A model generated the notes under the pieces. That model saw nothing but the letters and a program-made list of their open reading frames with translations, had not been told where the DNA came from and did no database searches. A DNA stretch of 37,504 bases from Aeromicrobium sp. Its GTDB lineage: Bacteria; Actinomycetota; Actinomycetes; Propionibacteriales; Nocardioidaceae. The stretch spans positions 1-37,504 of the forward strand of contig JAOPXO010000224.1 in NCBI GenBank assembly GCA_025965115.1, given 5' to 3'. Positions 1,484 to 22,792 of the stretch are shown here, one piece after another. Each line of letters opens with the position of its first letter. Within the stretch, counting starts at the first letter, position 1. The position numbers and the translations under genes were made by a program.

Positions 1484-4215
<2,732 letters not shown>

Positions 4216-4219
<4 letters not shown>

Positions 4220-4246
4220 GTCCGGACTCAGGCCCACGTGAGGGCT
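4216..4246 (+). terminator. Possible terminator: two small hairpins at the secA stop
   Basis: A perfect 16-bp palindrome, CTGAGTCCGGACTCAG (4216-4231), overlaps the secA stop codon and could fold as a 6-bp stem with a CCGG loop. It is followed directly by GCCC-ACGTGA-GGGC (4233-4246) and then a T-rich TGTGTGTCT. There is no long T tract, as is usual in high-GC actinomycetes. The symmetry is certain; terminator function is inference. Confidence 0.4.
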
Positions 4247-4402
4247 GTGTGTCTCCGGATGCGCTCGCCGCGGCGCGTTGGCGGCTCAAGTCATACTGCG
4301 ACAGCGCGTGAGCGTGCCCGCGATGCACCGTCCGGCCAGCAATCTCGGCTGCGACCATAGCGACCTCCATCGAGGCGATTATCGCTGCGGGCGGCACCTG
4401 GG

Positions 4403-4633
4403 TCAGCGGTCGGACGTGACGTCGTCGTTCTGATCGACGTGATCAGCGCGAGCGTACTGCCGAGAGATGTAGTCCTCGAGCTCGACGGCCTCGATGCGCC
4501 ACTGACCGCGTCCACCGATCTGGATGCCGCGCAGGTCCCCGGAGCGTACGAGAGCGTAGACCTGACGCACCGTGACGTTGAGAACTTCGCCGACGTCAGC
4601 CAGCGTGAGGAACCTCGGGGTGAGAGGCGGCAT
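4403..4633 (-). CDS. Small excisionase-type (MerR-like winged) helix-turn-helix protein
   Basis: 76 residues, almost entirely one HTH_17-type DNA-binding domain: LTLADVGEVLNVTVRQVYAL, then VRSGDLRGIQIGGRGQWRIE and a short acidic tail. Conserved one-domain proteins of this kind are widespread in actinobacteria and act as small transcription factors or nucleoid-associated regulators; I cannot name its targets. It is divergent from the acyltransferase gene at 4821, with 187 nt between. On the minus strand GAAACT (4645-4640) sits 6 nt before ATG 4633, which suggests leaderless transcription. There is no integrase nearby, so a role as a phage excisionase is unlikely. Confidence 0.8.
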   Translation of the reverse strand: MPPLTPRFLTLADVGEVLNVTVRQVYALVRSGDLRGIQIGGRGQWRIEAVELEDYISRQYARADHVDQNDDVTSDR

Positions 4634-4820
4634 GTGTCCAGTTTCCCATGACTTGGTGTCATCACCATCTGGGGATCCGCGCTCCCGTGGACAAGTGGGG
4701 GCTCTCCATTCGTCGCCCGAGTCGAGGTTCTTGCCGGGGCACTCGCGCCACGTGGTGTCGTGGCGACTTCGACAGCTTGACCCGGTGGTAACTTCTCCTC
4801 AGGACGTCACGAGGAGAGTC

Positions 4821-6224
4821 ATGCAACGGTTGAGCCCGCTGGATGCGATGTTCCTGCAGCAGGACAGCCCGAGCGTGCCCCGCCAGATCGCCTCTCTTGC
4901 GATCCTCGAGCCGGGACCCCAGCCGCTCGACTATGACCGCTTGATCCACGTCATCAACGAGCGGATCGCCTTGGTGCCCCGCTACCGCCAGGTGCCGCGC
5001 GCCGTTCCCGGTGGTTTCGGCCCCCCGGTGTGGGTCGATGACGAGAATTTCGACATCTCCCTGCACGTACGCCGATCGGCCCTCCCGCGCCCGGGCACGA
5101 CCGGCTCGCTGCACGAGCTGGTGGGACGGCTTATCGCCCGGCGGCTCGACCTCGACCGTCCATTGTGGGAGCTCTACCTGATCGAGGGGCTGACCGACGG
5201 CCGGGTCGCGCTGCTGTTCAAGGCACACCAGGCGCTGGTCGACGGCTCGGAGACGGTCGATCTTGCGCAGGTCCTGCTCGAGGAGGCGGCGCATGATCGC
5301 GACATCCCGCACGACGACTGGAATCCGCGGTCCGAACCCAATGCGGCGGCGCTGGTCGCCGATTCGGTCAATCGCAATATCCGGCATCCCGGTGAGGCGC
5401 TGCGGATTGCCGAGCGCAATCTTGGGCGACTCACCAGACGCCTGCCGCTGATCGGGTCCGACGCCCAGGCGCCACACAGCGTCCTGTCGGCCGAGCTGTC
5501 TCGGCACCGCAAGTTCGCCTCGCTCGCGGCGAGTCTCGACGACTTCCGCATGGTCCGCGACGCACATGGTGGCACGGTCAACGACGTGATTCTCGCGGCG
5601 ATCACCGGGGGCATCCGCGGCTGGATGCTGACCCGCGCCGAGCCGGTCACGGCCAAGACGAGATTTCGCGCTATGGTGCCGATGTCGGTCGTCGCCGATG
5701 ACGGTCTGCCGACGTCGTTGGGCTCCAAGGTCCGGGGACACCTGCTGTCATTGCCGGTGGGGGAGTCCAATCCGGTGGTGCGCCTTCACCAGGTCTCGTA
5801 TGCACTGAAGGACCACCGCGAGACCGGATCGGCGGTTGCCGCCAACAAGCTGGCTGATCTCCCGGGATTTGCCACCTCGACGTTCCACGCGGTCGGAGCG
5901 CGGGTGGCTTCGGCGGAGGAGAATCGCGGGCACCAGATCGTGATCACCAATGTGCCGGGGCCCAAGGATCCGGTCTACATGGCCGGCGATGTGGTCAGCG
6001 AGGTCTACCCCTGCATTCCGCTGAGCGGCAACCGAGCCGTCGCGATCGGAGTGACGTCGTACACCAGCAAGGTGTTCTTCGGGATCGTCGCCGATCGAGA
6101 TGCCGTGCCCGACGTCGACGTGCTGGCGCAGTGCATCGAGGATGCACTGCTCGAGCTGGTCGAGACGATCGACAAACGCCGCGGCCACGCGCCACGCGGT
6201 CGACAGCGCCCGGCCAAGACGTGA
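4821..6224 (+). CDS. WS/DGAT/MGAT family acyltransferase (wax ester synthase / diacylglycerol acyltransferase type)
   Basis: 467 residues from ATG 4821, which has a GAGGAG ribosome site 8-13 nt upstream; the frame is open further upstream, but this start gives the canonical MQRLSPLDAMFL beginning. The family transfers acyl groups from acyl-CoA to long-chain alcohols or diacylglycerol, making wax esters or triacylglycerol at the membrane. Visible: PLWELYLIEGL before the active-site block, the PLWE-type fold context, and NVPGPKDPVYMAG near the C-terminus. The active-site HHxxxDG motif reads HQALVDG, so its second His, usually the catalytic base, is Gln. The protein may be altered in activity or belong to a divergent subfamily. 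A -10-like TAACTT lies at 4789-4794. Confidence 0.9.
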   Translation: MQRLSPLDAMFLQQDSPSVPRQIASLAILEPGPQPLDYDRLIHVINERIALVPRYRQVPRAVPGGFGPPVWVDDENFDISLHVRRSALPRPGTTGSLHELVGRLIARRLDLDRPLWELYLIEGLTDGRVALLFKAHQALVDGSETVDLAQVLLEEAAHDRDIPHDDWNPRSEPNAAALVADSVNRNIRHPGEALRIAERNLGRLTRRLPLIGSDAQAPHSVLSAELSRHRKFASLAASLDDFRMVRDAHGGTVNDVILAAITGGIRGWMLTRAEPVTAKTRFRAMVPMSVVADDGLPTSLGSKVRGHLLSLPVGESNPVVRLHQVSYALKDHRETGSAVAANKLADLPGFATSTFHAVGARVASAEENRGHQIVITNVPGPKDPVYMAGDVVSEVYPCIPLSGNRAVAIGVTSYTSKVFFGIVADRDAVPDVDVLAQCIEDALLELVETIDKRRGHAPRGRQRPAKT

Positions 6225-6525: not shown

Positions 6526-7007
6526 AGCCTCTCCATCCCGTATGCGACCTCTTCGCGCAGGGACGAGGTGATCGCCTTGGCGATCTCGGGCTCGATCTTC
6601 TTGCCGATGAACGGGATCGACACCTTGACGTCGCCGTTCAGCACGAATTCGGACCCGTCGCCGGTGGCGCTGAGAACGGCTTTTCCGATCATCTCCGCAG
6701 GTTGACCGATGATGCTGACCTTGACGTCGGCGGAGCGACTGCCGTCGGCACCGGGTCCGCTCCACACCTCGGTCTGCTTGACCTTGACGGTGCTGCCGGT
6801 GAGCTTCTTGACGAACTCGGGCAGCTCGGCGGCCTGGGTGCGGATCACGGTGACCGTGGCACCGTCACCCTTCTCCTCCACTGTCACGGTGTAGTCGGTC
6901 GAGCCCTGGTTGGCGCAGGACTCGGTGCGGAATTCCTGGTCGGTGATCAGGGCATAGACACTCTCGACATCTGAGCCTGAGTAGCTGAAGGACTCGTTGA
7001 GCTTCAT
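6522..7007 (-). CDS. DUF2505 (SRPBCC/START-like) protein
   Basis: 161 residues. It begins MKLNESFSYSGSDVESVYAL, the standard start of DUF2505, a START-like helix-grip family that is predicted to bind a hydrophobic ligand. Alternating beta strands and a C-terminal helix (IAKAITSSLREEVAYGMERL) fit that fold. No signal peptide or membrane segment is seen. ATG 7007 overlaps the stop of the upstream pspA-like gene by 4 bp (ATGA), so the two are translationally coupled. This points to a shared role, possibly in membrane or lipid stress. Ligand and function are unknown. Confidence 0.8.
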   Translation of the reverse strand: MKLNESFSYSGSDVESVYALITDQEFRTESCANQGSTDYTVTVEEKGDGATVTVIRTQAAELPEFVKKLTGSTVKVKQTEVWSGPGADGSRSADVKVSIIGQPAEMIGKAVLSATGDGSEFVLNGDVKVSIPFIGKKIEPEIAKAITSSLREEVAYGMERL

Positions 7008-7771
7008 CCGGCGGCCGGTGTGCTCGGAGCGGCCGGGGCTTCTACTGCCGCCGGTGCGCCTGCGCCCTTGAGCTCGGAGAGTCGGGCCTCGACCTCAGCC
7101 GCGGTGCTGTCGCCTTCGAGCTCGGCGAACTGCGAGTCGAGGCTGGACGAGGCCAACTCGGCGTGCCCGGCAACCTGCGCCTCGTCGCGGCGGACCTTCT
7201 CCTCGAAGCGGGACAGCTCGCTGGTCGGATCGAGGACATTGATCGACGACACGGCCTCTTGGACCTTGGCCTGGGCATCGGCGGTCTTGGAGCGGGCCAC
7301 CAACTCATCGCGTTTGGACTGCAGCTCGCCCAGCTTGCCCTGCATGTTGATCAACCCGGTCTTGAGCTGCTCGACCGTCGCGTTCTGTGTGGCGATCTGC
7401 GGGGCCGCCGTCTTGGCCTCGTTCTCAAAGCCGATCTGCTTGCTCAGCGCGACCTTCGCGAGGGTGTCGAACTTGTCCGCGTCCGCGGTCTGGCCGGAGG
7501 TCCGCAGCTGGTCGGCCTTTTGTGATGCCGCGAGGGCCTTGGCGCCCCATTCCTTGACGGCGGCGACGTCTTCGGCGTAGTCGGCCTCTGCCAACCGCAC
7601 ATTGCCAATCGTCTGGGCGACGGCGTCCTCGGCCTCGGCGATCGAGTTGGTGTAGTCGCGAACAAGCTGGTCGAGCATCTTCTCAGGGTCTTCGGCCTTG
7701 TCGAGGAGCGAGTTGATGTTGGCGCGGGTCAACTGGCCGATGCGACCGAGGATGGACTGTTTCTGAGCCAT
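7004..7771 (-). CDS. pspA: PspA/IM30 family protein (membrane-stress coiled-coil protein)
   Basis: 255 residues from ATG 7771, which has GGAGAA 10 nt upstream; a GTG three codons earlier sits too close to that ribosome site. The protein is a long, highly charged helical coiled coil (LLDKAEDPEKMLDQLVRDY, then heptad-like stretches to about residue 215) with an Ala/Pro-rich tail. PspA/IM30 proteins form ESCRT-III-like assemblies on the inner membrane and guard against leakage. The N-terminal amphipathic helix is recognisable (SILGRIGQLTRANINSLLDK). It is the first gene of a two-gene operon with the DUF2505 protein. No PspF- or ClgR-type regulator is nearby. Confidence 0.88.
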   Translation of the reverse strand: MAQKQSILGRIGQLTRANINSLLDKAEDPEKMLDQLVRDYTNSIAEAEDAVAQTIGNVRLAEADYAEDVAAVKEWGAKALAASQKADQLRTSGQTADADKFDTLAKVALSKQIGFENEAKTAAPQIATQNATVEQLKTGLINMQGKLGELQSKRDELVARSKTADAQAKVQEAVSSINVLDPTSELSRFEEKVRRDEAQVAGHAELASSSLDSQFAELEGDSTAAEVEARLSELKGAGAPAAVEAPAAPSTPAAG

Positions 7772-7821
7772 GTTCGTCACTTTCTCCGTGGATGGTGCCT
7801 CTCACTCCTGTGATCTTGGTG

Positions 7822-7869: not shown

Positions 7870-9077
7870 GCGCCCCGGAAGATCCAGACCCGCATCAGCA
7901 CGAACCGCATCAACGTCACGAAGAGGTTGGCGACCGTGAGCACGGCGACTTCCTGCAGAGGGTGGTGCGGCCCGCTGATGCGGTTCAGCAGCAGCAGTGA
8001 GGCGCTGGTGATGCCGAGACCCGCACCGAAGACGAGCAGGCCCTGCACCTGATGCCGCATCGCATGGCTTCGCCCCTGGAATCCGAAGGTGAATCGGCGA
8101 TTGGCTGCGGTGTTGGCGACCGCCGTGATTGCCAGCGCGGCCGCATTGGCCTGCTGCGGTCCGAGGTGGCCGCGAAGCAGCACGAACAACAGCCCGTAGC
8201 CCACAGTCGACGCCATGCCGATCAGGGCGAAGATCACCAGCTGGGCACTGAGTCGTCCGCCGGCGCTCCGTGCGGTCGCTCGTCCGAGAGTCTGCGTGAC
8301 CTCGGCCAACGGGACGCGTCCGCGAAGCAGGGCCCAGCCGAGTCGGCCCATTCCGCGGAGGTCCGCGGTGGCCGTACGCACGATGTCGACCCGGCTGTCG
8401 ATGTCATCGATCCAGTCGACAGGGACTTCGTGGATGCGGAGCCCGGCGCGTTCGGCAACCACCAGAAGCTCGGTGTCGAAAAACCACTCGTCGTCCTCGA
8501 TCAGCGGAAGGAGCCGGGTGGCCACATCGCGCCGGATCGCCTTGAATCCGCACTGCGCGTCCGAGAAGCGAGTACGCAGCGTGCTTCGCAGCAGCAGGTT
8601 GTACGACCGGGAGATCACCTCGCGCTTGGGGCCACGGATCGTCCGCGATGAGCGGGCGAGTCGCGAGCCGATCGCCAGGTCAGAGTGACCCGACAGCAAC
8701 GGCGCCACGAGTGGCAGGAGGGCGTTGAGATCGGTGGAGAGGTCGACGTCCATGTAGACGAGGACTTCCGCGTCCGACCTCGACCACGCCTGCTTGAGCG
8801 CATGTCCACGGCCCTTGCGGGCCAGGCTGACCACCCGGACGTCGGGGTAGCGGTGCGCGAGCTGGTGAGCGAGGAGACTCGTCGCATCGGTGCTGGCGTT
8901 GTCCGCGATCGTGATCCGGTAGTCGTAGCCGAGCGTCTTCATGTGAGCCCGGACGGTGTCCACCGACCCGACCAGGGCGGTCTCCTCGTTGTAGACCGGG
9001 ATCACGATGTCGAGCACCGGTGAGCGGTCCAGCTCGAGCATCGGGGCGCCGGTGTCAGTCGCCAGGTTGCCGATCAC
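7860..9077 (-). CDS. Bifunctional GT2 glycosyltransferase / GtrA-like membrane protein
   Basis: 405 residues. The N-terminal ~240 residues are a GT-A fold family 2 transferase of the dolichyl-phosphate mannose synthase type: LDIVIPVYNEE (22-32), the DxD metal motif D110-V-D112 in VYMDVDLSTD, and DAQCGFKAIRRD. The C-terminal ~120 residues are a four-helix GtrA domain ending in the typical RFVLMRVWIF. Such fusions load a sugar onto polyprenyl phosphate and help move it across the membrane. GTG 9077 overlaps the stop of the GT39 gene (GTGA). An internal ATG at 9041 is an alternative start. The obvious partner is the upstream GT39 enzyme, which would use the polyprenyl-linked sugar outside the cell. 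Confidence 0.9.
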   Translation of the reverse strand: MIGNLATDTGAPMLELDRSPVLDIVIPVYNEETALVGSVDTVRAHMKTLGYDYRITIADNASTDATSLLAHQLAHRYPDVRVVSLARKGRGHALKQAWSRSDAEVLVYMDVDLSTDLNALLPLVAPLLSGHSDLAIGSRLARSSRTIRGPKREVISRSYNLLLRSTLRTRFSDAQCGFKAIRRDVATRLLPLIEDDEWFFDTELLVVAERAGLRIHEVPVDWIDDIDSRVDIVRTATADLRGMGRLGWALLRGRVPLAEVTQTLGRATARSAGGRLSAQLVIFALIGMASTVGYGLLFVLLRGHLGPQQANAAALAITAVANTAANRRFTFGFQGRSHAMRHQVQGLLVFGAGLGITSASLLLLNRISGPHHPLQEVAVLTVANLFVTLMRFVLMRVWIFRGAKN

Positions 9078-11134
9078 CTGATGCCGCCGGAGAGGTCATA
9101 GACCGTGACGCCGTCGACGGTCTTGGCGGTGAAGTTCGCGGCCACCCAGGTCGAGATTTGGGTGCTCGCGCTGCCCGTCGCATTGCCCGGACCGCCACCA
9201 CTTCCGCTGCTGGCGATGAAGTAGTGGATCTCACCGTCTGCGACGTACTGCTTGAACTGCGCCAGGGTCGGGCTCGGGTCTGACCCGTTGAAGCCACCGA
9301 TCGGCATCACCGGGAGCTGGGCGGCGAGCTGGTAGCCGGCTGCTGAGTTGGAGCCGATTGCGGCCGCGACCCAGGTGTACGAGCTGGCGTCGGTCTGCAG
9401 CAGCTTGGTTATCGTGCTGGTGGACTGTGAGCCGGTGAGCAGGCCGCCGGTCGACCCCTGGCCCGTTGTGCGCTGGGTCGTGCCCTGACCGGTCTGGCCC
9501 TGCGTCGTGCCCTGGGTCTGTCCGGGACGGCCGGTGAAGCCGCCACCTCCGCCAGGACGCTGACCTCCGCCACCGCCGGGTCCGCCTTGACCGCCGCTGT
9601 TAGGGCCGGCTGTCGGGATCGAGCCGGAGTGCGGGGTCGTCGCGGTGTCGACGGCGTACGCCGCGGGTCCGGCGAGCGTGGAGATGACAGTCGCAATCGC
9701 GACCGCGGCGAGAGCTCGGCGCGGCAGGTAGCGGTGCAGCACGATCAGGAACGCGGCAGCGACGCCCGCGATGACCACGACATACTTGACCCACGGGACG
9801 AAGCTCGCACTGCGACCCAGAAGTGTGTAGCTCATCGCCGCGGTCATCGCGATGACGAAGGCCGCGCCGAGGGTGGCGACGTGCGACGTGCGGTGCTCCC
9901 ACAGCAGACTCGCGCCGATCGCGACTACTGCGGCGATCGCCGGCGCCAGGGCCACCGTGTAGTAGGCGTGGAAGATGCCGGCCATGAAGCTGAAGGTCAG
10001 ACCGGTGACGAGCAGCCAGCCGCCCCACACGATGAGTCCGCTGAGCTGTCGGTCGGTGCGACCAGCGGAGCGACGGAACCACAGGCCAAGCGCCAGCAGG
10101 GCGAGCGAGGCAGGAAGCAGCCAGGCGATCTGGCCGCCGATCTCGGAGTTGAACAGTCGGAACAGACCGGTGGCACCCCAGTTGCCGCCACCGTTGCCAC
10201 CGCCGCCCCCGACGGAGCCGGTCTCATTGCCGCTGAGCCGGCCGAAGCCGTTGTAGCCGAGGGTCAGCTCGAGGATCGAGTTGTTCTGCGATCCGCCGAT
10301 GTACGGCCGACTCGACGCGGGCCACAGCTGGACGATTGCGACCCACCAGCCGGCTGCCGCGATCATCGACCCGAAGGCGATCAGCAGGTGGCGCAGACGT
10401 ACGCCCACCGAGGGCTTGGCCGCGATCAGGTAGACGATGGCCAGCGGCGGAAGGACGAGGAATGCCTGCAACATCTTGGTCAGGAACGCGAAGCCGACGA
10501 GCGCGCCACCAAAGGCGAGCCAGCGAACTGCCCGTTCGGGCGACTCGAGGGCGCGCAATGTGGCGTACACGGCAGCGACCAGCAGCAGGGTCAGCAGCGC
10601 GTCGGGGTTGTTGAACCGGAACATCAGCACCGCGACCGGCGTCAAAGCCAGGATCGCTCCGGCGAACAGGCCGGCCCACGCATTGCGGGTTGTGCGGCGC
10701 ACGGTCGCATACAGCAGTCCGACCGCGCCGACGCCCATCAGCGCCTGTGGGACGAGGATGCTCCACGCCGAGAGTCCGAAGATGCGTACGGACAGCTCCA
10801 TGGGCCACAGCGACATCGGCGTCTTGTCGACGGTGATCGAGTTCGCGGCGTCGGAGGAGCCGAAGAAGAATGCCTTCCACGATGTCGAGCCGGCCTGCAC
10901 CGCGGCGGAGTAGAACGAGTTGGCCCAACCGGATGCGCCGAGGTCCCAGAGATAGAGCACAGCGGTGGCGAGCAGGAGGGCGAAGAGGGCCGGACGTATG
11001 AGCGCTGAGTCCTCCGGGCGCCCCCGCCAGAGGCGAGTCAGCCGAGTCGGAGTGGCGCGGTGGCCGTCGTGTGCATAGGCGGCCACGGGCGGCATTTCCG
11101 CAGGTGGCGCAAGGAGTGTCTGGTTCATACCCAT
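9074..11134 (-). CDS. GT39/ArnT-like polyprenyl-linked glycosyltransferase, multi-spanning, Gly-rich loops
   Basis: About 686 residues from ATG 11134; starts at 11158 and 11128 are also possible, and none has a clear ribosome site. A regulatory repeat at 11174-11190 favours one of the internal starts. The N-terminal half has about ten membrane helices and the PMT/ArnT-type segment LGASGWANSFYSAAVQAGS, with acidic residues following in VDKTPMSLWPMELS. Enzymes of this type transfer a sugar from polyprenyl phosphate to proteins or glycans on the outer face of the membrane. Two unusual Gly-rich runs are inserted: one near residue 310 and a longer one around 520-570 containing GGQGGPGGGGG and Gln/Thr/Gly repeats. 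The C-terminus is a soluble alpha/beta domain. Operon with the GT2-GtrA gene downstream. Confidence 0.88.
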   Translation of the reverse strand: MGMNQTLLAPPAEMPPVAAYAHDGHRATPTRLTRLWRGRPEDSALIRPALFALLLATAVLYLWDLGASGWANSFYSAAVQAGSTSWKAFFFGSSDAANSITVDKTPMSLWPMELSVRIFGLSAWSILVPQALMGVGAVGLLYATVRRTTRNAWAGLFAGAILALTPVAVLMFRFNNPDALLTLLLVAAVYATLRALESPERAVRWLAFGGALVGFAFLTKMLQAFLVLPPLAIVYLIAAKPSVGVRLRHLLIAFGSMIAAAGWWVAIVQLWPASSRPYIGGSQNNSILELTLGYNGFGRLSGNETGSVGGGGGNGGGNWGATGLFRLFNSEIGGQIAWLLPASLALLALGLWFRRSAGRTDRQLSGLIVWGGWLLVTGLTFSFMAGIFHAYYTVALAPAIAAVVAIGASLLWEHRTSHVATLGAAFVIAMTAAMSYTLLGRSASFVPWVKYVVVIAGVAAAFLIVLHRYLPRRALAAVAIATVISTLAGPAAYAVDTATTPHSGSIPTAGPNSGGQGGPGGGGGQRPGGGGGFTGRPGQTQGTTQGQTGQGTTQRTTGQGSTGGLLTGSQSTSTITKLLQTDASSYTWVAAAIGSNSAAGYQLAAQLPVMPIGGFNGSDPSPTLAQFKQYVADGEIHYFIASSGSGGGPGNATGSASTQISTWVAANFTAKTVDGVTVYDLSGGIR

Positions 11135-11173
11135 GACGATGTGGGATCGCTCTGGCATGGCCGTGTGGTCAGA

Positions 11174-11190
11174 CTGTGGGCCTTCTGTGA
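11174..11190 (-). promoter_or_regulatory. Predicted PhoP-like operator upstream of the GT39 gene
   Basis: CTGTG (11174-11178) and CTGTGA (11185-11190) form a direct repeat with an 11-bp period, as bound by OmpR/PhoP-family dimers. The same half-site and spacing occur twice in the promoter of the neighbouring response regulator. Regulation by that protein is inference. Confidence 0.45.
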
Positions 11191-11206
11191 GCCCTCGGCA
11201 GAAGAC

Positions 11207-12670
11207 TCAGCGCAACGGCAGAGTCAGCGTGAACGTGGTGTCGCCGGGCTCGCTCGTCACGGTCGCCGTGCCGTAGTGACCGTGCACGATCGCCTGCACG
11301 AGCGACATGCCGAGACCGGCTCCACCCGATGCGCGGGTGCGTGAGGAGTCTCCGCGGGTGAAGCGGTCGAACAGGGTCGGCAGGATCTCTGGATCGATTC
11401 CCGGTCCGTCGTCATGGATGTCGATCACGACCTGGTCGGCATCGACCCGCAGGCGTCCGCTCACCGTGGTCTTGGGCGGCGTATGACGACTCGCATTCGT
11501 CAGCAGGTTGGTCACCGCCTGGTGGAGCCGCTGCTCGTCGCCGCGGATCACAATGGGCTCATCCGGGACGTCGAACGTCCAATGATGCTCGGGATCGACG
11601 ACGCGGGCATCGTTGATCGCCTCGACCAGCAGTCGGGTCAGATCGACGTCTTGGAGCTCCAGCTCTCGTCCAGCGTCCAGCCGCGCGAGCAGCAGCATGT
11701 CTTCGACCAGGGTCGACATCCGGCCGGCCTCGGACTCGACCTTGGCCAGGATCTGGTCAGGATCCTCGCGGCCGGTGCGGCGGCTGAGCTCGGCATACCC
11801 CTTGATCGTCGACAGGGGAGTGCGCAGCTCGTGCGAGGCATCGGCAAGGAACTTCCGTGCCTGCTGCTCGCTCTCATGTCGGGCATCGAGCGCCTGCTCG
11901 ACGTGGCCCAGCAACTGGTTGAGGGCTTCGCCGACCTGGCCCACCTCGTTCGACGGGTCGGTGAGCTCCGCGGGGACGCGTACGGTCTCGCCGACCAGGC
12001 CCGAGGACAGCGGCATCGCGGTGACCTCATGGGCGGTCGCCGCCACGTCGCGCAAGGGCTGGAGCTGACGGCGTACGAGGATGCGACCGCCCACCGCGGC
12101 GATCGCGATGCCGGCAAGCGCCAGCAGCGACTCCCACCAGATGAGGCTCGCGATGGTGCTGTCGAGATCCTTCGTGGGTAGTCCCTGCCACACCACGGCA
12201 CCCGTCGGGGTCTTGGTGGCAGCAACGCGGTATGAGCCGAGCGCAGGAAGAGAGATGGTGTGGGGATCTGCACCGGTCTTGACGGTCGCGATGGTGCTGA
12301 GGGCACTTCGGGACATGTCGCGAAGCGATCCGCTGGTAGTGATGACCGAGCCGCGCAACCCATCTGCGTCGTACAACGCAGTCACACTTCCAGCTCCCTG
12401 GCCACGAGCGACCGGTGGCGGTTCGCCACCGAAGGTGTTGCCGAAACCGCCGTTGGGTGCTGAGCCGCCGCTGTCGTTGGGCACTTCCCGGCCAACGAAG
12501 ATTTGGGCCCGGTTGAGTGACTGGTCGAGCTGATCGTCGAGCCTGCCGGTCAGGTAGGACCGCATGACCAGCGCAGATGCCACGGTGAGCAGGATGCTCA
12601 CGACAGCAACGAGCGCCACCGCCGTGACGATGAGCCGGCCGGTCAGCGAGGCGGGCAGGAGGCTGCGCAC
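11207..12670 (-). CDS. Two-component sensor histidine kinase with Gly-rich sensor loop
   Basis: 487 residues. Two membrane helices (about 11-35 and 176-198) flank an extracellular sensor region, followed by HAMP, a HisKA domain with the phospho-accepting H280 in FLADASHELRTPLSTIKGYA, and a HATPase domain (N-box NLLTNASRH, G-boxes DDGPGID and GGAGLGMSLV). The sensor loop holds a Gly/Pro-rich stretch (GGSAPNGGFGNTFGGEPPP, about 68-86). Similar Gly-rich segments occur in the neighbouring GT39 protein and in the small peptide at 13522. It lies 5 nt downstream of the response-regulator gene, so they form one operon and a cognate pair. The stimulus is unknown. Architecture is certain. Confidence 0.95.
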   Translation of the reverse strand: MRSLLPASLTGRLIVTAVALVAVVSILLTVASALVMRSYLTGRLDDQLDQSLNRAQIFVGREVPNDSGGSAPNGGFGNTFGGEPPPVARGQGAGSVTALYDADGLRGSVITTSGSLRDMSRSALSTIATVKTGADPHTISLPALGSYRVAATKTPTGAVVWQGLPTKDLDSTIASLIWWESLLALAGIAIAAVGGRILVRRQLQPLRDVAATAHEVTAMPLSSGLVGETVRVPAELTDPSNEVGQVGEALNQLLGHVEQALDARHESEQQARKFLADASHELRTPLSTIKGYAELSRRTGREDPDQILAKVESEAGRMSTLVEDMLLLARLDAGRELELQDVDLTRLLVEAINDARVVDPEHHWTFDVPDEPIVIRGDEQRLHQAVTNLLTNASRHTPPKTTVSGRLRVDADQVVIDIHDDGPGIDPEILPTLFDRFTRGDSSRTRASGGAGLGMSLVQAIVHGHYGTATVTSEPGDTTFTLTLPLR

Positions 12671-12675
12671 GGGAC

Positions 12676-13392
12676 CTACTCTGCCGGTTTCAGTACGTAG
12701 CCGGCACCGCGCTTGGTGTGGATCATCGGCTCCTGACCGAAGTCAATCTTCTTGCGCAGGTACGAGATGTAGATCTCGACGACATTGGCCTGGCCGCCGA
12801 AGTCGTAGTCCCAGACGTGGTCGAGGATCTGCGCCTTCGACAGCACCCGTCGGGGGTTGCGCATGAGATAGCGCAGCAGCTCGAACTCGGTCGCGGTCAG
12901 ATCGATGGGCCGTCCAGCCCGCTCGACGTCACGACTGTCCTCATCCAGGCTGAGGTCGCCGACCTTGATGACGGCGTTGGGGCGCGCCGCGGTGGCGCCC
13001 GTACGCCGCATCAGCCCGCGCAGGCGGGCAACGACCTCTTCCAGGCTGAATGGCTTGATGACGTAGTCGTCGCCGCCTGCGGTGAGGCCGGCAACCCGGT
13101 CCTCGACCGAGTCACGCGCGGTCAGGAACAGGACGGGGATGTCGGGAGACTGGGCGCGCACCTTGCGCAGGACCTCCATGCCGTCGAAGTCGGGCAGCAT
13201 CATGTCGAGCACGATGGCGTCCGGCGAGAAGTCCTTGGCCGAGGCCACAGCAGCGCGGCCGCTGTGCGCCAGCGAGATCTCCCAGCCTTCATAGCGCAGG
13301 GCCATCTGCAGGAGCTCCGCGATGTTGACCTCGTCGTCGACGACGAGAACGCGGAGGGCTGATCCATCAGGTCTGGTCAAAGAGGGCGCCAT
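12676..13392 (-). CDS. OmpR-family response regulator, PhoP-like
   Basis: 238 residues. The receiver domain has D19/D20, the phosphorylation site D63 (IVLDMMLPD), T91 and K113 (DDYVIKPFSLEE). A winged-helix DNA-binding domain of OmpR type follows (LTATEFELLRYLMRNPRRVL, then HTKRGAGYVLKP). From memory it resembles mycobacterial PhoP closely, notably GGDDYV-KPFSLEEVVARLR and ILDHVW-YDFGG-NVVE. It heads the operon with the histidine kinase. On the minus strand CACACT (13404-13399) stands 6 nt before ATG 13392, suggesting a leaderless mRNA. A tandem repeat at 13436-13455 would then sit upstream of its -35 region, consistent with autoregulation. The PhoP-like call concerns the subfamily, not phosphate sensing. 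Confidence 0.93.
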   Translation of the reverse strand: MAPSLTRPDGSALRVLVVDDEVNIAELLQMALRYEGWEISLAHSGRAAVASAKDFSPDAIVLDMMLPDFDGMEVLRKVRAQSPDIPVLFLTARDSVEDRVAGLTAGGDDYVIKPFSLEEVVARLRGLMRRTGATAARPNAVIKVGDLSLDEDSRDVERAGRPIDLTATEFELLRYLMRNPRRVLSKAQILDHVWDYDFGGQANVVEIYISYLRKKIDFGQEPMIHTKRGAGYVLKPAE

Positions 13393-13435
13393 GACTCAAG
13401 TGTGGGGTGGCAAATCGCGTCCGGCGTAAGAACAG

Positions 13436-13455
13436 CCTGTGAGATTCCTGTGAGA
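13436..13455 (+). promoter_or_regulatory. Tandem operator (CCTGTGAGA x2, 11-bp period) in the divergent promoter
   Basis: CCTGTGAGA at 13436-13444 and again at 13447-13455, exactly one helical turn apart. It lies 44-63 bp upstream of the response-regulator start. Spacing and half-site match the PhoP-type tandem recognition pattern. Binding is predicted only. Confidence 0.55.
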
Positions 13456-13482
13456 GCGTCCCTCAGGTGCCCGAGAGTGCGG

Positions 13483-13500
13483 TCACAGGCGGATGACAGG
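13483..13500 (-). promoter_or_regulatory. Second tandem operator, opposite orientation, before the Gly-rich peptide gene
   Basis: TCACAGG (13483-13489) and TGACAGG (13494-13500) are 11 bp apart and are the reverse complement type of the CCTGTGA repeats at 13436. They lie 22-39 bp upstream of ATG 13522, where an activator overlapping the -35 region would bind. Confidence 0.5.
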
Positions 13501-13521
13501 TGCCCCGGTCACGGTGGCCTG

Positions 13522-13782
13522 ATGAATGACGAACAGAATTCGAGCTGGCCAGTGCGTACGACGGTGGCGGCAGCGCTGGCGGTCGTGGTGCTCGGCCTCG
13601 GTGCCGGTGCGGCGTTGGGCGCCGCCGGGAGCGGAGCCGACAGCGGCGGACAAGGCGGTCCGGGCGGACGCGGTGGCTTCGGCGGCGCACCCGGTCAAGG
13701 ACAAGGCGGCTTCCAGCCCGGCGGGGGCCAGGGCGGCACCGCCCCCGGTCAGCAAGGCACCGCGGGTATCTCCAACGCCTGA
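13522..13782 (+). CDS. Small membrane-anchored or secreted Gly/Gln-rich protein
   Basis: 86 residues from ATG 13522. A short polar N-terminus is followed by one hydrophobic helix (TVAAALAVVVLGLGAGAALG, residues 13-32). The remaining ~50 residues are almost only Gly, Gln, Pro and Ala, including GGQGGPGGRGGFGG, with no Cys and no clear signal-peptidase site. It is most likely tail-out and anchored by its N-terminal helix, or secreted. The 8-residue string GGQGGPGG also occurs in the GT39 protein two genes away. It is divergent from the response regulator, with predicted operators between. Function unknown; it could be a target, ligand or cell-wall component of this locus. Real expression is supported by the operator placement and coding-like G/C third positions. 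Confidence 0.65.
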   Translation: MNDEQNSSWPVRTTVAAALAVVVLGLGAGAALGAAGSGADSGGQGGPGGRGGFGGAPGQGQGGFQPGGGQGGTAPGQQGTAGISNA

Positions 13783-13791
13783 CCGCGCGAC

Positions 13792-13797
13792 TAGGCT
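13792..13797 (+). promoter_or_regulatory. -10 box for leaderless tetR transcript
   Basis: TAGGCT ends 6 nt before ATG 13804; no Shine-Dalgarno sequence is present. Matches the actinobacterial TAnnnT -10 pattern. Confidence 0.5.
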
Positions 13798-13803
13798 TGG
13801 GCC

Positions 13804-14412
13804 ATGACGAGCCTCACCCGATCGCAGGTGCAGGAGCGCAACCGCGAGACCGTCCTGAGCGTCGCGCGGAAGTCGTTCCTCCGCGATGGCTATCTCGCCA
13901 CCTCGCTGGCCACGGTCGCCCGCGACGCCGGCTTCACCACCGGCATCGTCTACTCCAGCTTCGGGAGCAAGGCCGATCTCGCGCTCGGCGTCGCCGAGGG
14001 TCTCCAGACCGAGCAGATCTCAGCACTGGGCGACCGCGTGGGTGGTGTCGCGTCACCCGATGAGGTGCTCGAGCACGTACGCGCCTGGGCCGTGGAGGCC
14101 AATGCATCTGGCTGGGTGCGGTTCGAGCTGGAGCTGCTGCTCGACACGATCGGCGACACCCGCCTGGCCGCCGCGCAGACCGCTCGCCAGATGGCCGCAG
14201 TCGCCCAGGCGGCGGTTGTCGTACGTTCGCTGGTCACCGTCGATGACGTCGACGACAAGACGCTCGAGATCCTGGCCGAGGCGGCCGTCGACTATGCGAT
14301 CGGCGTCGCGATCCGCCAGGTCGTCAACCGCGACGCCTCGCCCGATCGATTCCTGCGGCTGGTCGCTCCGCTGGTCGCCGGCCTCGGTCGTTCCTCAAGT
14401 CCGCCGACCTAG
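13804..14412 (+). CDS. TetR family transcriptional regulator
   Basis: 202 residues. The N-terminal HTH is typical of TetR: RETVLSVARKSFLRDGYLAT, then VARDAGFTTGIVYSSFGSKADL (about residues 16-60). The C-terminal helical ligand-binding domain is not similar to any subfamily I recognise. TAGGCT (13792-13797) lies 6 nt before ATG 13804 and there is no ribosome site, so the mRNA is probably leaderless. Its TAG stop overlaps the stop of the convergent acylase gene within CTAG 14409-14412. Regulatory targets are not evident; the adjacent acylase is the nearest candidate, but it is convergent. Confidence 0.92.
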   Translation: MTSLTRSQVQERNRETVLSVARKSFLRDGYLATSLATVARDAGFTTGIVYSSFGSKADLALGVAEGLQTEQISALGDRVGGVASPDEVLEHVRAWAVEANASGWVRFELELLLDTIGDTRLAAAQTARQMAAVAQAAVVVRSLVTVDDVDDKTLEILAEAAVDYAIGVAIRQVVNRDASPDRFLRLVAPLVAGLGRSSSPPT

Positions 14413-17192
14413 CGCGCCCGGTGGGTGCGGTAGTCGACAACCTGCTGGAACGTCGGCCGGTTCTGCCAGTCGATCGGGCGCACGCTCACGATGCCGCCCG
14501 TGGTGGGACGGATGTAGTCGAGCGACTTGTCGTATGTCAGCTTGTCGGGGCTCGTCACCTTCTGGGCGGTCTCGGCGCGCTGGACCGCGGCGGCCAGGGA
14601 GGCCCGCAGCGATGCCTGGCACTGGCTGAACGTGCCGCACAGGCTGTAGGCGAATGGCGTCTTCACCGTCGCGCCGGTCAGGCTGCGGAGGTTCTTGTCG
14701 ATGTAGGAGTACCACGGCGATCCGAGCCACGATGAGCCCTGACCCTGATTCGGGTGGTCGTCCAGCGGCTGCGGCAGAGCCTTCGCCATGTCCGAGCCGA
14801 GGCCCTTCGACGCGAAGTCATAGGCCAGCGCATTGTCGCCGTCCTGCCACCAGGTGTCGAAGATCCGGATCGCGGCCTGATGGTCGTACGCACCCGTGCG
14901 CGCGCGGTCGACGCGGTGGGCGCCGTCGGCCTGCCAGTCGCTCAGCAGCTTGCGTGCCTCAGCGGTCTTGGGATCGTTGCCGATGACCTTGAGCAATGTG
15001 GGCAACAGGGTTTCGGCACGCAGGTCCTCGGTGGCAGCATCCATCAGGATGCCGTCGAGCCCGGCACGGGTGACATTGCCCTTCTTGACCGCCGCAGCGG
15101 CGCGCAGGCTCAGCTCCTGGGATCGGTGGACCGGACCGTCCGACCACTCATCGTCGGCGGCCGCGTAGTCCTTGGCCGGCTTGTTGTTCCAGCTCGCGAG
15201 GTAGTTGGTCGGCGGATCGATCTGCTGGACGTGCTTGGCGTCGGACAGGAAGCCGGTCCAGTCGTACTTCTTGTCGCCCCAGCGCGGCAACTCCGAGTCG
15301 GTGCCTGACGCGCGATTCGGCAGGCGACCCGACGAGAAGTACGCAATGTCCTTGTCGTCGGCGTAGAACCAGTTGAACGTGTAGTCGATGCCGGCGGCGG
15401 CCTTCTTGAACGATGTCGCATCGTGCACGAAGTCGGGGTTGTTGAAGCGCGAGAAGCCCAGGATCGAGGCCGCTTCGCGTCCGTACGTCGTGCGCTGGAG
15501 CACCATCGCGACCGGCACGCCCTTGACGGTGGTGCGGGTCTGCACGATGCCGTGGTTGGTGCGCCAGATCTGCATCTTGATCGTGCTCGGGGTGACCGGA
15601 GCCGAGATGTTGGGGATCACGGTCTCCTTCTGCTCGTTGTACTGCATCGGCACGCAGGCGCCGCCGTCCTTGAGGTACGACGTCGAGTTGACCGTGGGTT
15701 TGCTGCCGTCGGCGTTGCACAGCTTCTCGGCGACGGTGTCGATGTTGTCGCTGCCGGCGCTGGTGGCCGACCACGCATAGTCGAGGCCGTGGCCGAGCTC
15801 GACGACGAGCTGGGTGCCGGCGAACGACACGCCGCGGGCCATGACGCCCGGGCCCATCAGCACCTGCTCGGACAACAGTTGCGGGTTGTAATAGCCGGTC
15901 TGTGGTCCGAACACGACCAACGGGTGGCCGGTTTTGGTGGCCTTGGCGCCGATCAGGAGCGCATTGCTCATGCCCGAGTTGGTGAACAGCGTGCTGAGGT
16001 CGATCGCCGGCTTGTCACCAGCCTTCGTCGCCTTGGCGGATGCGGGCTCGGGGGCGGGTACGCCGGTCAGCCCGAGGCGCAACGCGTCGAGGAGGGTCTG
16101 CACCAGGTTGGTGCTGCCGCCCACGTCGTCGCCGGTGGCTGAGGCGGACGGCCCGTCGAGATCCGGGATCGCCACACCGGGCTGGTCGGGGTTGAACGAC
16201 TTGTTGTCGTACGGGAAGGAGAGCGTCGAGGTGGTCGGCGCCTCGGTGTCGTTCTTCTCGGTCAGGCTGGAGAACATCTTGTCGGCCTTGGCCTTGCCGT
16301 ACTTCTTGACGAGCTTGTCGTAGAAGATGCCGTTGGCGAACTCGTGTCCGCCGCCCTTGCCGAAGATGCCGCCGACGAGCGAGGCGACGTAGGTCAGGTC
16401 TGCCCTAGTCCACGGGGTGGGCTTCTTCTGCAGGGCGAGATATTCGGCAGGGCACTTGGGGCCGGTCGGCAGCAGCGCCGGGCACATCTTCTCCTGAGCT
16501 GCGTTGATGCCGGCGATGTACGCATCGGCGCCCTTGAGCAGCCGGGCGCCTTCCGCACCGTTCTCGTCGGCGATGATCTGGAGTTGGTCCTCGGCTTCCT
16601 TCGGGGTGTAGAACGCCGAACGCACCTGGGCGCGGTCCATCGCGATGTTGCCGGGAGTGCCGCCGACGAACTCAGCGCCGCGACCGGCACCGAGGTGGCG
16701 CAGGGCGTCCATCAGGAACATCCGGTCCTGGGTGCCGGCAAATCCGGCTCCGAACTCGGTGTCCTCATACGTCTTGCCGGTGATGTAGGGGACGCCGTAC
16801 GCATCGCGGACGATCGAGACGCCAGTCTTGGGTGACTCGGTGCTGACGACCTTTTCCGGCACGAAGCCGGCCTTCTTGTAGTCCTTGTCGATCACCGTGT
16901 CGGTGATGTCGGCCGGCTTGTATTTGTTGAGGTCGTCATACATCTCGAGCTGATCGGCGTAGTTGGTCGGGGCGTTCTTGCCGTCGGTCGCGGTGAGCCC
17001 ACCGCCGGCCAGCACCTTGACAAGGTCGGCCGCATCGATCGAGCCGCGCTGGCCCGCCGGGACGACATTGCGGACGACGCCATAGGAGTCGGCGGTGGCC
17101 GGACTGGGGACGGTCGTGTCGGCCTGAGCCGGCAGCACCGCCGCTCCGACAGCAAGGACGCTAAAGACGGTGACAACGGCACTACGACGCAC
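14409..17192 (-). CDS. Secreted penicillin acylase family protein (Ntn hydrolase)
   Basis: 927 residues from GTG 17192, chosen because AGAGGAG lies 7 nt upstream and the protein then begins directly with a signal peptide (RRSAVVTVFSVLAVGAAVL, cleavage likely after AQA). A GTG 11 codons upstream is less likely. It belongs to the S45 family, whose precursors cut themselves into alpha and beta chains; the new N-terminal Ser of the beta chain is the nucleophile. Visible: VSIVRDAYGVPYITG near the start of the alpha chain, and GMSNALLIG where Ser409 is the likely catalytic Ser. Substrates of the family are N-acyl compounds such as penicillin G, acyl-homoserine lactones or lipopeptides. The true substrate is unknown. 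Convergent with tetR. Confidence 0.9.
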   Translation of the reverse strand: MRRSAVVTVFSVLAVGAAVLPAQADTTVPSPATADSYGVVRNVVPAGQRGSIDAADLVKVLAGGGLTATDGKNAPTNYADQLEMYDDLNKYKPADITDTVIDKDYKKAGFVPEKVVSTESPKTGVSIVRDAYGVPYITGKTYEDTEFGAGFAGTQDRMFLMDALRHLGAGRGAEFVGGTPGNIAMDRAQVRSAFYTPKEAEDQLQIIADENGAEGARLLKGADAYIAGINAAQEKMCPALLPTGPKCPAEYLALQKKPTPWTRADLTYVASLVGGIFGKGGGHEFANGIFYDKLVKKYGKAKADKMFSSLTEKNDTEAPTTSTLSFPYDNKSFNPDQPGVAIPDLDGPSASATGDDVGGSTNLVQTLLDALRLGLTGVPAPEPASAKATKAGDKPAIDLSTLFTNSGMSNALLIGAKATKTGHPLVVFGPQTGYYNPQLLSEQVLMGPGVMARGVSFAGTQLVVELGHGLDYAWSATSAGSDNIDTVAEKLCNADGSKPTVNSTSYLKDGGACVPMQYNEQKETVIPNISAPVTPSTIKMQIWRTNHGIVQTRTTVKGVPVAMVLQRTTYGREAASILGFSRFNNPDFVHDATSFKKAAAGIDYTFNWFYADDKDIAYFSSGRLPNRASGTDSELPRWGDKKYDWTGFLSDAKHVQQIDPPTNYLASWNNKPAKDYAAADDEWSDGPVHRSQELSLRAAAAVKKGNVTRAGLDGILMDAATEDLRAETLLPTLLKVIGNDPKTAEARKLLSDWQADGAHRVDRARTGAYDHQAAIRIFDTWWQDGDNALAYDFASKGLGSDMAKALPQPLDDHPNQGQGSSWLGSPWYSYIDKNLRSLTGATVKTPFAYSLCGTFSQCQASLRASLAAAVQRAETAQKVTSPDKLTYDKSLDYIRPTTGGIVSVRPIDWQNRPTFQQVVDYRTHRAR

Positions 17193-17213
17193 GATCGTGC
17201 TCCTCTGGCTCAA

Positions 17214-17258
17214 GTTGTGTCCCACGTCACAACGAGTGCGTTAACACGGAGTTACACG
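17214..17258 (-). promoter_or_regulatory. Acylase promoter region with dyad and 11-bp direct repeat
   Basis: GTTGTG (17214-17219) and CACAAC (17228-17233) form a perfect inverted repeat. Just upstream for the minus-strand gene lie GTTAACAC (17240-17247) and GTTACACG (17251-17258), a direct repeat with 11-bp period. The latter resembles tandem sites of OmpR-family regulators (PHO-box- or GlnR-like). The regulator is not known. Confidence 0.35.
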
Positions 17259-21422: not shown

Positions 21423-21818
21423 TCAGATCGCGATCAGAGCTGTCACGCCGAGGGCAAATCCGGAGAGGTAAGTCAGGCCAGCACCAAGATCCCGGATGCC
21501 CCCGTGGGTCACGATGCTCTTCGAGGTCAGCATGCCGACGGCGTGTGCGAGGCGGGCGGCCAGGGCAACGAGCGCAAGCGTGTTGAGCCACCAGCCGTCA
21601 GTGAGGGTCGAGCACAGGATCAACAGTCCGATCAACGTCGGTACGTACTCGGCAGCGTTCCCGTGCGCTCGCTGGGCGATCCACAGCTTGTCCGTCGGAT
21701 CGGTCGGGATCTGCTGACCGGTGTCGCCGCGCTTCGCCCGGTGATGGGTGACATTCGCTCCGAGCACGAAGACCAAGATTCCCAGCAGGGAGATGGAGAT
21801 GATGACGATGTCGCTCAT
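21423..21818 (-). CDS. MAPEG family membrane protein (microsomal glutathione S-transferase-like)
   Basis: 131 residues from ATG 21818, which overlaps the gshB stop by 4 bp. Four membrane helices are visible (about 3-22, 58-76, 80-98 and 112-131). The family signature QRAHGNAAEYVP (49-60) follows the first helix. MAPEG proteins include microsomal glutathione S-transferase and leukotriene C4 synthase, which conjugate glutathione to hydrophobic electrophiles or reduce lipid peroxides at the membrane. Most bacterial members are uncharacterised. Here its position between gshB and a gamma-glutamyl hydrolase strongly suggests a glutathione-dependent role. Confidence 0.9.
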   Translation of the reverse strand: MSDIVIISISLLGILVFVLGANVTHHRAKRGDTGQQIPTDPTDKLWIAQRAHGNAAEYVPTLIGLLILCSTLTDGWWLNTLALVALAARLAHAVGMLTSKSIVTHGGIRDLGAGLTYLSGFALGVTALIAI

Positions 21819-22792
21819 GCGGACCGCCGTCCTTTCTGGTGGATGGGTTGGAGAAGGTGGCGCATGATCGCGCCGCTGAGATCGGTGCCCAGGAGGGCAT
21901 CGGTCTTGTGCATGCCACCGGGACAGGTGACATTGACTTCGATGAGCCGGCCGGCGATCACGTCGAGGCCGGCCACGATGATTCCGTGGGTGCGGAGCAG
22001 GGGAGCGAGCGCAGCGACGATGCGACGATCGTCGGCATCCGGCTCGGCCGGAGCCACTGGCGGACCGATCCGGAAATCGTCGTCGCACGGGCGGCGGAGC
22101 ACGGTGCCGACGATCTCCCCGTCGACGACGAACAAGCGTTTGTTGCCGCCCTCGACGTCAGGCAGATAGGTCTGCGCGATGACCTGCCGGGATCCGCCCC
22201 GGGTTGCCGACTCGACCAGCGCCGTCGCAGCGGAGTCGTCCTGGACCAGCCATACGTCGATGCCTGCGAATCCGTCCACCGGCTTGATCACCGTGGTGCC
22301 GTGCTGGCGGATGAACTCCCTCAATCGTCGTGGATCCGTGCTCACGATGGTGGTCGGGATGAGTTCGGGGAAGCGAAGGGCGACGAGCTTTTCGTGCAGC
22401 ATCCGGATGCCGTCGGGCCGATTGATCACCCGAACCCCGCCGGCCTCGACCAGATCCAGGAGGTACGTCGCGTGCAGGTAGCGGGTGTCGACCGGGGGAT
22501 CGATGCGGAACTGCACGAGATCGAGGTCATGAACCACATCGAGGATGCGACGCTCCACCTCTTCGTGCCACTGCGCCTCGACCGACCAACGATGGTCAGT
22601 GCCGCGCTCGACCGGCCTGAGGCAGATCCGCGAAGCCGTGGCCAGGACTCGACCATCGACCACAGCGAGATCCTCAGGAGTGCATACCCACACGTCGGCG
22701 CCCAACGCCTGGGTAGCCAGCATCAGTCCGACGCTCGCGTCGATCGACGCATCCAGTCCGGTCAGGGGATCGGTGACGAACAAGACGTTCAT
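21815..22792 (-). CDS. gshB: Glutathione synthetase (GshB, ATP-grasp)
   Basis: 325 residues. It follows the proteobacterial GshB plan: VTDPLTGLDASIDAS N-terminus, FRIDPPVDTRYLHATYLL (95-112), VINRPDGIR (123-130), ATP-grasp lysine K170 in VIKPVDGFAGIDV, AQTYLPDVEGGNKRLFVVDG (206-225), GLDVI (275-279) and the metal-binding EVNVTCPG (285-292). The enzyme joins gamma-glutamyl-cysteine and glycine with ATP to form glutathione. ATG 22792 overlaps the gshA-like stop (ATGA) and its own stop overlaps the MAPEG start, so the genes are tightly coupled. Glutathione synthesis is unusual in mycothiol-using actinobacteria, and horizontal acquisition is likely. Confidence 0.93.
   Translation of the reverse strand: MNVLFVTDPLTGLDASIDASVGLMLATQALGADVWVCTPEDLAVVDGRVLATASRICLRPVERGTDHRWSVEAQWHEEVERRILDVVHDLDLVQFRIDPPVDTRYLHATYLLDLVEAGGVRVINRPDGIRMLHEKLVALRFPELIPTTIVSTDPRRLREFIRQHGTTVIKPVDGFAGIDVWLVQDDSAATALVESATRGGSRQVIAQTYLPDVEGGNKRLFVVDGEIVGTVLRRPCDDDFRIGPPVAPAEPDADDRRIVAALAPLLRTHGIIVAGLDVIAGRLIEVNVTCPGGMHKTDALLGTDLSGAIMRHLLQPIHQKGRRSA

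Follow-up and report, generated by a model that had tools for sequence, protein, structure and literature searches.

The PhoQP two-component system controls Arn in enterobacteria. A small membrane peptide, MgrB, is described as its feedback partner (PMC2789325). Multi-component transmembrane glycosylation systems have been described elsewhere (PMC8035078, PMC5836110), and the response regulator PhoP of Mycobacterium tuberculosis is reported to bind repeats of TCACAGC separated by a spacer of strictly 4 bp (PMC4832192). Here we discuss a locus of an Aeromicrobium sp. that shares features with each of these. It lies in a 37,504-nucleotide stretch (contig JAOPXO010000224.1 of assembly GCA_025965115.1), the whole of which we call the window, and includes genes for a GT2 glycosyltransferase with a GtrA domain (GT2-GtrA), a GT39 glycosyltransferase, a sensor histidine kinase, a response regulator (RR) and, divergently transcribed, an 86-residue Gly-rich peptide. 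On balance we favour a reading in which the two-component system is dedicated to glycosylation of the envelope and the peptide is its co-regulated membrane partner.

Open reading frames and Pfam and NCBIfam matches give the minus-strand order PspA, GT2-GtrA, GT39, kinase and RR, and on the plus strand, divergent from the RR gene, the peptide gene and then a TetR regulator gene (Table 1). The assembly is of 3.03 Mb and 88% complete, and its nearest named relatives are Aeromicrobium. The genes, the operators, their conservation and the selection on the peptide were observed directly. The genes are genuine and very probably make up a single regulatory unit of this Aeromicrobium-like genome. A preliminary description of the window had taken five genes as one set with shared predicted operators. 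Both claims hold, as the neighbourhood is conserved and has three matching predicted operators, and the second is now stronger than when it was made, with two exact matches in the genome and a third site facing the peptide gene.

The two exact matches in the genome to CTGTGRG-N4-CTGTGAG are the RR-facing and GT39-facing sites, which have the same orientation relative to their genes. The peptide-facing repeat was detected in an alignment of 12 intergenic regions from peptide-bearing Aeromicrobium, and a search of the genome with TCACAGGNNNNTGACAGG, at most one mismatch allowed, finds the peptide-facing and RR-facing sites and no others. A direct repeat of a TCACAGC-like 7-mer with a 4-bp spacer is present at the predicted targets. 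The sites are 43 nt upstream of the RR start, 21 nt upstream of the peptide start, and 15 nt upstream of the GT39 start as called or 45 nt upstream of Met11 (at 11128), and because the latter distance is close to that for RR, Met11 is perhaps the likelier start. A promoter and terminator scan of 13350-13860 detected nothing, and Rfam and tRNA scans gave no matches.

For comparison we used the best 80 of at least 588 loci from named genomes, together with stretches from 149 genomes of the family, the genus and family labels of these genomes being inferred from their nearest named relatives. Counts based on RR refer to 107 loci, 84 from the family and 23 from other actinobacteria, with RR starts set by alignment. 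Operators were sought as CTGTG-N6-CTGTGA (12 fixed bases, at most one mismatch), and random windows of the same loci, coding DNA included, served as controls. The peptide was counted by a strict test that required a score above 20 bits with a profile of the transmembrane (TM) region, location on the opposite strand, and a TM no more than 900 nt from the RR start. An RR-facing site is present in 105 of 106 loci, against 5 of 491 random windows. For the GT39-facing site the figure is 45 of 67, made up of 41/45 in Nocardioidaceae and 4/22 elsewhere. In Streptomyces loci with GT2 first the site precedes GT2 in 11 of 11, with nine exact, and in the other loci outside Nocardioidaceae, where GT39 is first, it is often absent or has at least two mismatches. 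The peptide-facing site is found in 27 of 41 loci with the peptide by the strict test, against 3 of 54 with no profile match (Fisher test, 2e-10; the 54 include a few with long, weak or masked peptide forms) and 3 of 491 control windows.

A wide regulon we reject, since the exact 17-mer occurs at 76 places in 41 genomes of the genus, against 28 for a reversed control, and the known RR and GT39 sites account for at least 38 of the 76. The site on C132 of the genome under study is inside an open frame. The exact RR-type operator also recurs in four genomes of the genus (L271-L274), in L271 near position 2007 and before a small lipoprotein gene, and this is possibly a further target in one clade.

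With regard to the regulator itself, the closest solved relative is M. tuberculosis PhoP. The PhoP contacts N212, E215, Y217, Y220 and the minor-groove R237 are kept in all 107 RRs, and V213 in 95 of them. The best 50 of 736 matches in a fold search with the kinase were chiefly kinase cores, the top match being a WalK-YycH model, and gave no lead for the sensor domain.

The glycosyltransferase pair is, with comparably high confidence, one of enzymes for envelope or surface glycosylation, a class assignment as well supported as the regulatory unit and resting on sequence and fold. The two genes overlap by 4 bases. GtrA is the C-terminal domain of the GT2 protein, with its Pfam match above the cut-off, and direct reading shows a DxD stretch, MDVDLSTD, in the same protein. 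The predicted fold of GT39 is closest to ArnT, with 5f15 (E 6e-9) and 5ezm (E 7e-8) as best Foldseek matches. Three features of a multi-component transmembrane glycosylation system, a GT-A-fold GT2 predicted to make lipid-P-sugar, a GtrA-type flippase and a GT-C-fold transferase, are present.

RR, kinase and the glycosyltransferase pair are clustered in Nocardioidaceae, Streptomyces, Micromonospora, Nonomuraea and some mycobacteria, and a Lentzea locus (L138) combines RR and kinase with two GT39 genes. In the family, RR was matched in 95 of 149 genomes at E 1e-80 (four far weaker than the others) and GT39 in 62 of 149 at E 0.001 (some weak), so that RR is often present without GT39. Clusters with two GT39 genes are those of L138, L117 and L140. 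L188 and L190 have RR and kinase, but we found no glycosyltransferase pair or peptide beside them, and in L188 PspA is directly 3' of the kinase gene. The gene combination discussed here was absent among the top-ranked matches listed in a literature search.

The peptide has no Pfam or NCBIfam match at E 0.01, and the analysis thus brings to light a small membrane protein outside the described families in these databases. By the strict test it is beside RR in 41 of 84 family loci, with the TM 143-658 nt from RR. In Aeromicrobium it is present in 14/21 loci with GT39 and 0/10 without, and in other Nocardioidaceae in 19/24 and 8/29 respectively, so that overall it is commoner with GT39 (33/45 against 8/39; Fisher test, 1.3e-6, relatedness uncorrected). 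In other actinobacteria the count is 0/23, with a long or divergent version in four of these loci. A looser count, made by eye, adds L151 (masked tail), L173 and L174 (same strand as RR), L176, L184, L187, L202, L206, L212, L213, L215, L216 and L218 (weaker, or 0.9-3.7 kb away) and forms in L117, L136, L138 and L140, and drops L193. It gives 15/21 and 2/10 for Aeromicrobium with and without GT39, 22/24 and 15/29 for other Nocardioidaceae, and 4/23 for other actinobacteria. L218 and L219 have GT39 elsewhere in the genome.

Judged from its coding sequences the peptide is under purifying selection, the ratio of nonsynonymous to synonymous substitution rates (dN/dS) being 0.14-0.34 in nine of ten pairs. 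The ratio is 0-0.31 for the TM. For the tail, the three closest pairs give 0.14-0.21 and five more give 0.26-0.72; two further tail values came out as 0.0 through saturation and should not be read as zero. The preliminary description would have been undermined had the small gene not been conserved or had the Gly runs been absent from all homologues. We find the gene conserved in the family and Gly runs present in homologues.

In Mycobacterium and Lentzea the same place is taken by a long form, with a TM, a Gly-rich spacer and a DUF5666-like domain. It is beside RR in L117, L138, L140 and L250, and also adjoins RR in L251; L250 and L251 both came from a phylum search. Two of three scanned long proteins match DUF5666 at E 2e-4 and 1.5e-3, below the Pfam cut-off, and the third has no match; the window peptide has no Pfam match to this domain. 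The phylum search, made with the long form, matched 21 of 296 genomes, most with no RR-like neighbour in the short stretch, and it missed the short form of the window.

We suggest that a small alpha/beta sensor region, which carries a disordered insert, lets the kinase respond to a condition of the envelope, and that the kinase, going by the roles of known families, would phosphorylate the PhoP-like RR. RR would then bind the three tandem TCACAG-type repeats, with their 11-bp period and 4-bp spacer, that face the operon of RR itself, that of GT39-GT2 and the gene for the peptide, and we infer activation rather than repression. Known families also suggest that GT2 would load a sugar on undecaprenyl phosphate, that the GtrA domain would flip the lipid-linked sugar, and that GT39 would transfer the sugar to an acceptor outside the membrane. 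The peptide is predicted to have its N-terminus inside, a Gly/Ala-rich TM and a disordered Gly-rich tail outside. Once co-induced it would most likely modulate the kinase, as MgrB does PhoQ, in a putative feedback role. Set against MgrB, it has 86 residues, one predicted TM and an operator of its own, and its control by RR is a prediction. Taken by itself the role as kinase modulator, argued by analogy, is tentative and we put it at about one chance in three.

Several observations weigh against the proposal. At the position of the PhoP contact S216 each of the 107 RRs has Leu or Ile, and DNA binding is therefore predicted and not certain. The peptide-facing site is absent in 14 of the 41 strict peptide loci, and one peptide pair has a dN/dS of 0.59. 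By the strict test, and with phylogeny uncorrected, the peptide is missing in 12/45 family loci with GT39, 31/39 without and 23/23 loci of other actinobacteria, so that the system can work without it. The peptide also tracks GT39 more than RR alone, which a pure modulator of the kinase need not do.

Table 1. Features of the locus, with positions in the window
Feature	Position	Strand	Evidence or remark
OmpR/PhoP-type response regulator, 238 aa	12676..13392	-	Response_reg/Trans_reg_C
Sensor histidine kinase, 487 aa	11207..12670	-	HAMP/HisKA/HATPase; AlphaFold2 model
GT39/PMT_2 GT-C transferase with YkcB_C domain, 694 aa as called	9074..11158	-	PF24878 E 7e-31, PF13231 E 1e-29
GT2 glycosyltransferase fused to GtrA membrane domain, 405 aa	7860..9077	-	PF00535 E 1e-24, PF04138 E 2e-12
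86-residue single-TM peptide, Gly-rich tail	13522..13782	+	ATG at 13522; GGQGGPGG at 13648-13667
RR-facing predicted operator TCACAGGAATCTCACAGG	13436..13453	-	tandem repeat, motif search
GT39-facing predicted operator	11174..11190	-	two CACAG half sites, 11-bp period
Peptide-facing predicted operator TCACAGGCGGATGACAGG	13483..13500	+	tandem repeat, intergenic alignment
Gly-rich linker of GT39, residues 509-579	9422..9634	-	GGQGGPGG at 9573-9592; composition retained by most of the 118 sequences compared
Second Gly-rich loop of GT39, about residues 313-328	10175..10222	-	residues 313-324 pLDDT < 50
Gly-containing insert of kinase sensor region, residues 61-87	12410..12490	-	variable in 104 sequences
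PspA/IM30 homologue	7004..7780	-	PF04012 E 2e-38; downstream of the glycosyltransferase pair in many Aeromicrobium loci
TetR regulator	13804-14412	+	3' of peptide gene

The preliminary description had also drawn attention to Gly-rich segments in three neighbouring proteins, and this stands for GT39 but is weaker for the kinase. The GT39 linker has at least 30% Gly in 108 of 118 sequences, with a median length of 77 residues, and residues 521-577 have a predicted local distance difference test score (pLDDT) below 50 in the AlphaFold2 model. The second GT39 loop has a median of 41% and a minimum of 29% Gly in the same 118 sequences. In the kinase, residues 69-87 of the insert have pLDDT below 50 in the AlphaFold2 model, and Gly makes up 25% of residues 56-99, the median for 104 sequences with lengths of 18-81 being 20%. 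The kinase segment is thus ordinary among these sequences, and we reject it as a distinctive Gly-rich sensor. That the kinase monitors a Gly-rich layer, as was also suggested, is conjecture; its Gly loop is a variable insert modelled at low confidence.

The identity of GGQGGPGG in the peptide and GT39, which was also claimed, is real, as DNA coding for it occurs exactly twice in the assembly, in these two genes. The full common word is SGGQGGPGG, and shuffling of the two segments gave a common word of at least eight residues in 0.6% of 5000 trials. The codons differ between the genes at three synonymous third positions, so the shared word is not a recent DNA copy. The exact word is not conserved, being in 1 of 53 peptide rows and 2 of 118 GT39 sequences, window included, and as a functional motif it is rejected.

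Among other explanations the strongest, which we put only a little below even, treats the Gly-rich segments as flexible spacers of a generic kind, such as surface proteins of GC-rich actinobacteria have, alike in composition and not in function. Among the GT39 linkers the sequence varies freely and the composition stays similar, the kinase insert varies in both length and composition, the exact string is not conserved, and GGPGG-type DNA occurs 27 times in the genome. However the three closest pairs show purifying selection on the peptide tail itself, and tails and linkers of the same genome have longer words in common than those of nearest relatives. In 36 loci, some from the looser peptide set, this sharing exceeds that of permuted pairs (p 0.002); it also does so within genus groups (p 0.0026) and against the three nearest relatives (22 up, 7 down, p 0.003). 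We regard this sharing of words as suggestive.

The same results bear on an alternative that we think unlikely, in which the tail and the GT39 linker, perhaps with the kinase insert, associate as low-complexity segments in one membrane patch. Consistent with this are the low pLDDT of the linker and insert and a word sharing between tail and kinase loop (p 0.012, 32 loci). However the tail and linker effect is small, 5.3 against 4.8 residues, in a comparison made without an unrelated Gly-rich control protein of the same genomes; shared 4-mers give p 0.023 within groups and p 0.036 against nearest relatives; and linker and kinase loop show no effect (p 0.53). Of similarly low probability is the more specific proposal that the tail binds in trans to the GT39 linker and the disordered kinase insert, the peptide representing a new actinobacterial family of regulator-controlled single-pass membrane proteins, with or without the DUF5666-like domain. 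If true, enzyme, sensor and peptide would be coupled by extracytoplasmic low-complexity contacts and the kinase reset by the state of the enzyme.

It is also improbable that the short peptide is what remains of a longer, anchored DUF5666-like protein and is losing its function in Nocardioidaceae. The long forms beside RR in L117, L138, L140 and L250 would fit such an origin, but the purifying selection and the conserved operator of its own in Aeromicrobium argue against it.

The least probable is that the peptide is acceptor or helper of the glycosyltransferase pair, as in the earlier suggestion that the pair modifies it, with GT39 glycosylating the tail, or the peptide presenting the acceptor, and the kinase reading the result: the operators common to peptide and GT39 and the greater frequency of the peptide in loci with GT39 favour this, and we rate it slightly higher than at first because the recount ties the peptide closer to GT39, but eight loci (L191, L200, L205, L207, L209, L210, L211 and L214) keep the peptide without GT39, those genomes having no strong GT39 match, the 12 GT39 loci lacking the peptide also speak against it, and the first 45 residues of 49 tails have a median of only 2 Ser plus Thr (range 0-9). 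A role as substrate or helper is less likely than one as modulator of the kinase.

Elsewhere in the window, a gene for a 938-aa penicillin-amidase family protein (14409-17225, minus strand; PF01804 E 1e-100) adjoins the TetR gene, and a homologue is near the locus in several relatives. Adjacent genes for glutamate-cysteine ligase (GCS2) and prokaryotic glutathione synthetase (21815-23790, minus strand) constitute a glutathione pathway, which to our knowledge is unusual for an actinobacterium. At 1484-6224 (plus strand) a gene for a 911-aa SecA-type protein is followed by one for a wax ester synthase/DGAT.

In comparing the locus with known systems, DUF5666 anchored proteins come close to the peptide through its long relatives in Mycobacterium and Lentzea, which combine a TM, a Gly-rich spacer and a DUF5666-like domain and whose genes adjoin the same RR; the window peptide differs in having no C-terminal domain. 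Rv0602c (TcrA) and Rv0603 of M. tuberculosis are no more than candidate relatives, and TcrA is described only as part of an Rv0600c-Rv0603c system (PMC10743970). CutRS of Streptomyces is, like the system here, an actinobacterial envelope two-component system, but CutR is reported to bind TAWATAAA (PMC12802291), and we reject membership as the operators here are TCACAG repeats.

The resemblance to M. tuberculosis PhoP, judged from contacts and motif and not from a tree, is in the tandem TCACAG repeat with 4-bp spacer and in nearly the same DNA-contact residues; the differences are the replacement of S216 in the 107 RRs and the few exact sites per genome. In the case of the glycosyltransferases the B. 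subtilis systems YkcBC, YkoST and CsbB-YfhO-GtcA have, as here, a GT-A (GT2) enzyme, a GtrA flippase and a GT-C transferase, and the YkcB_C domain is shared. The Aeromicrobium locus differs in having GtrA fused to GT2, a Gly-rich linker, adjoining regulatory genes and a divergent small membrane protein. It offers a testable regulon, of three operators and three transcripts, for the GT2-GtrA/GT39 class, for which acceptors are unknown even in the case of B. subtilis YkcBC, and it links the pair to a PhoP-like regulator in several actinobacterial orders.

The PhoQP-MgrB-Arn arrangement of enterobacteria is alike in placing a GT-C sugar transferase under a two-component system that also has a small membrane peptide. 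The likeness to MgrB is one of small size, predicted TM and arrangement, with a putative feedback role, and the Gly-rich tail is a difference. Should the peptide indeed regulate the kinase, actinobacteria would have in it a counterpart of MgrB.

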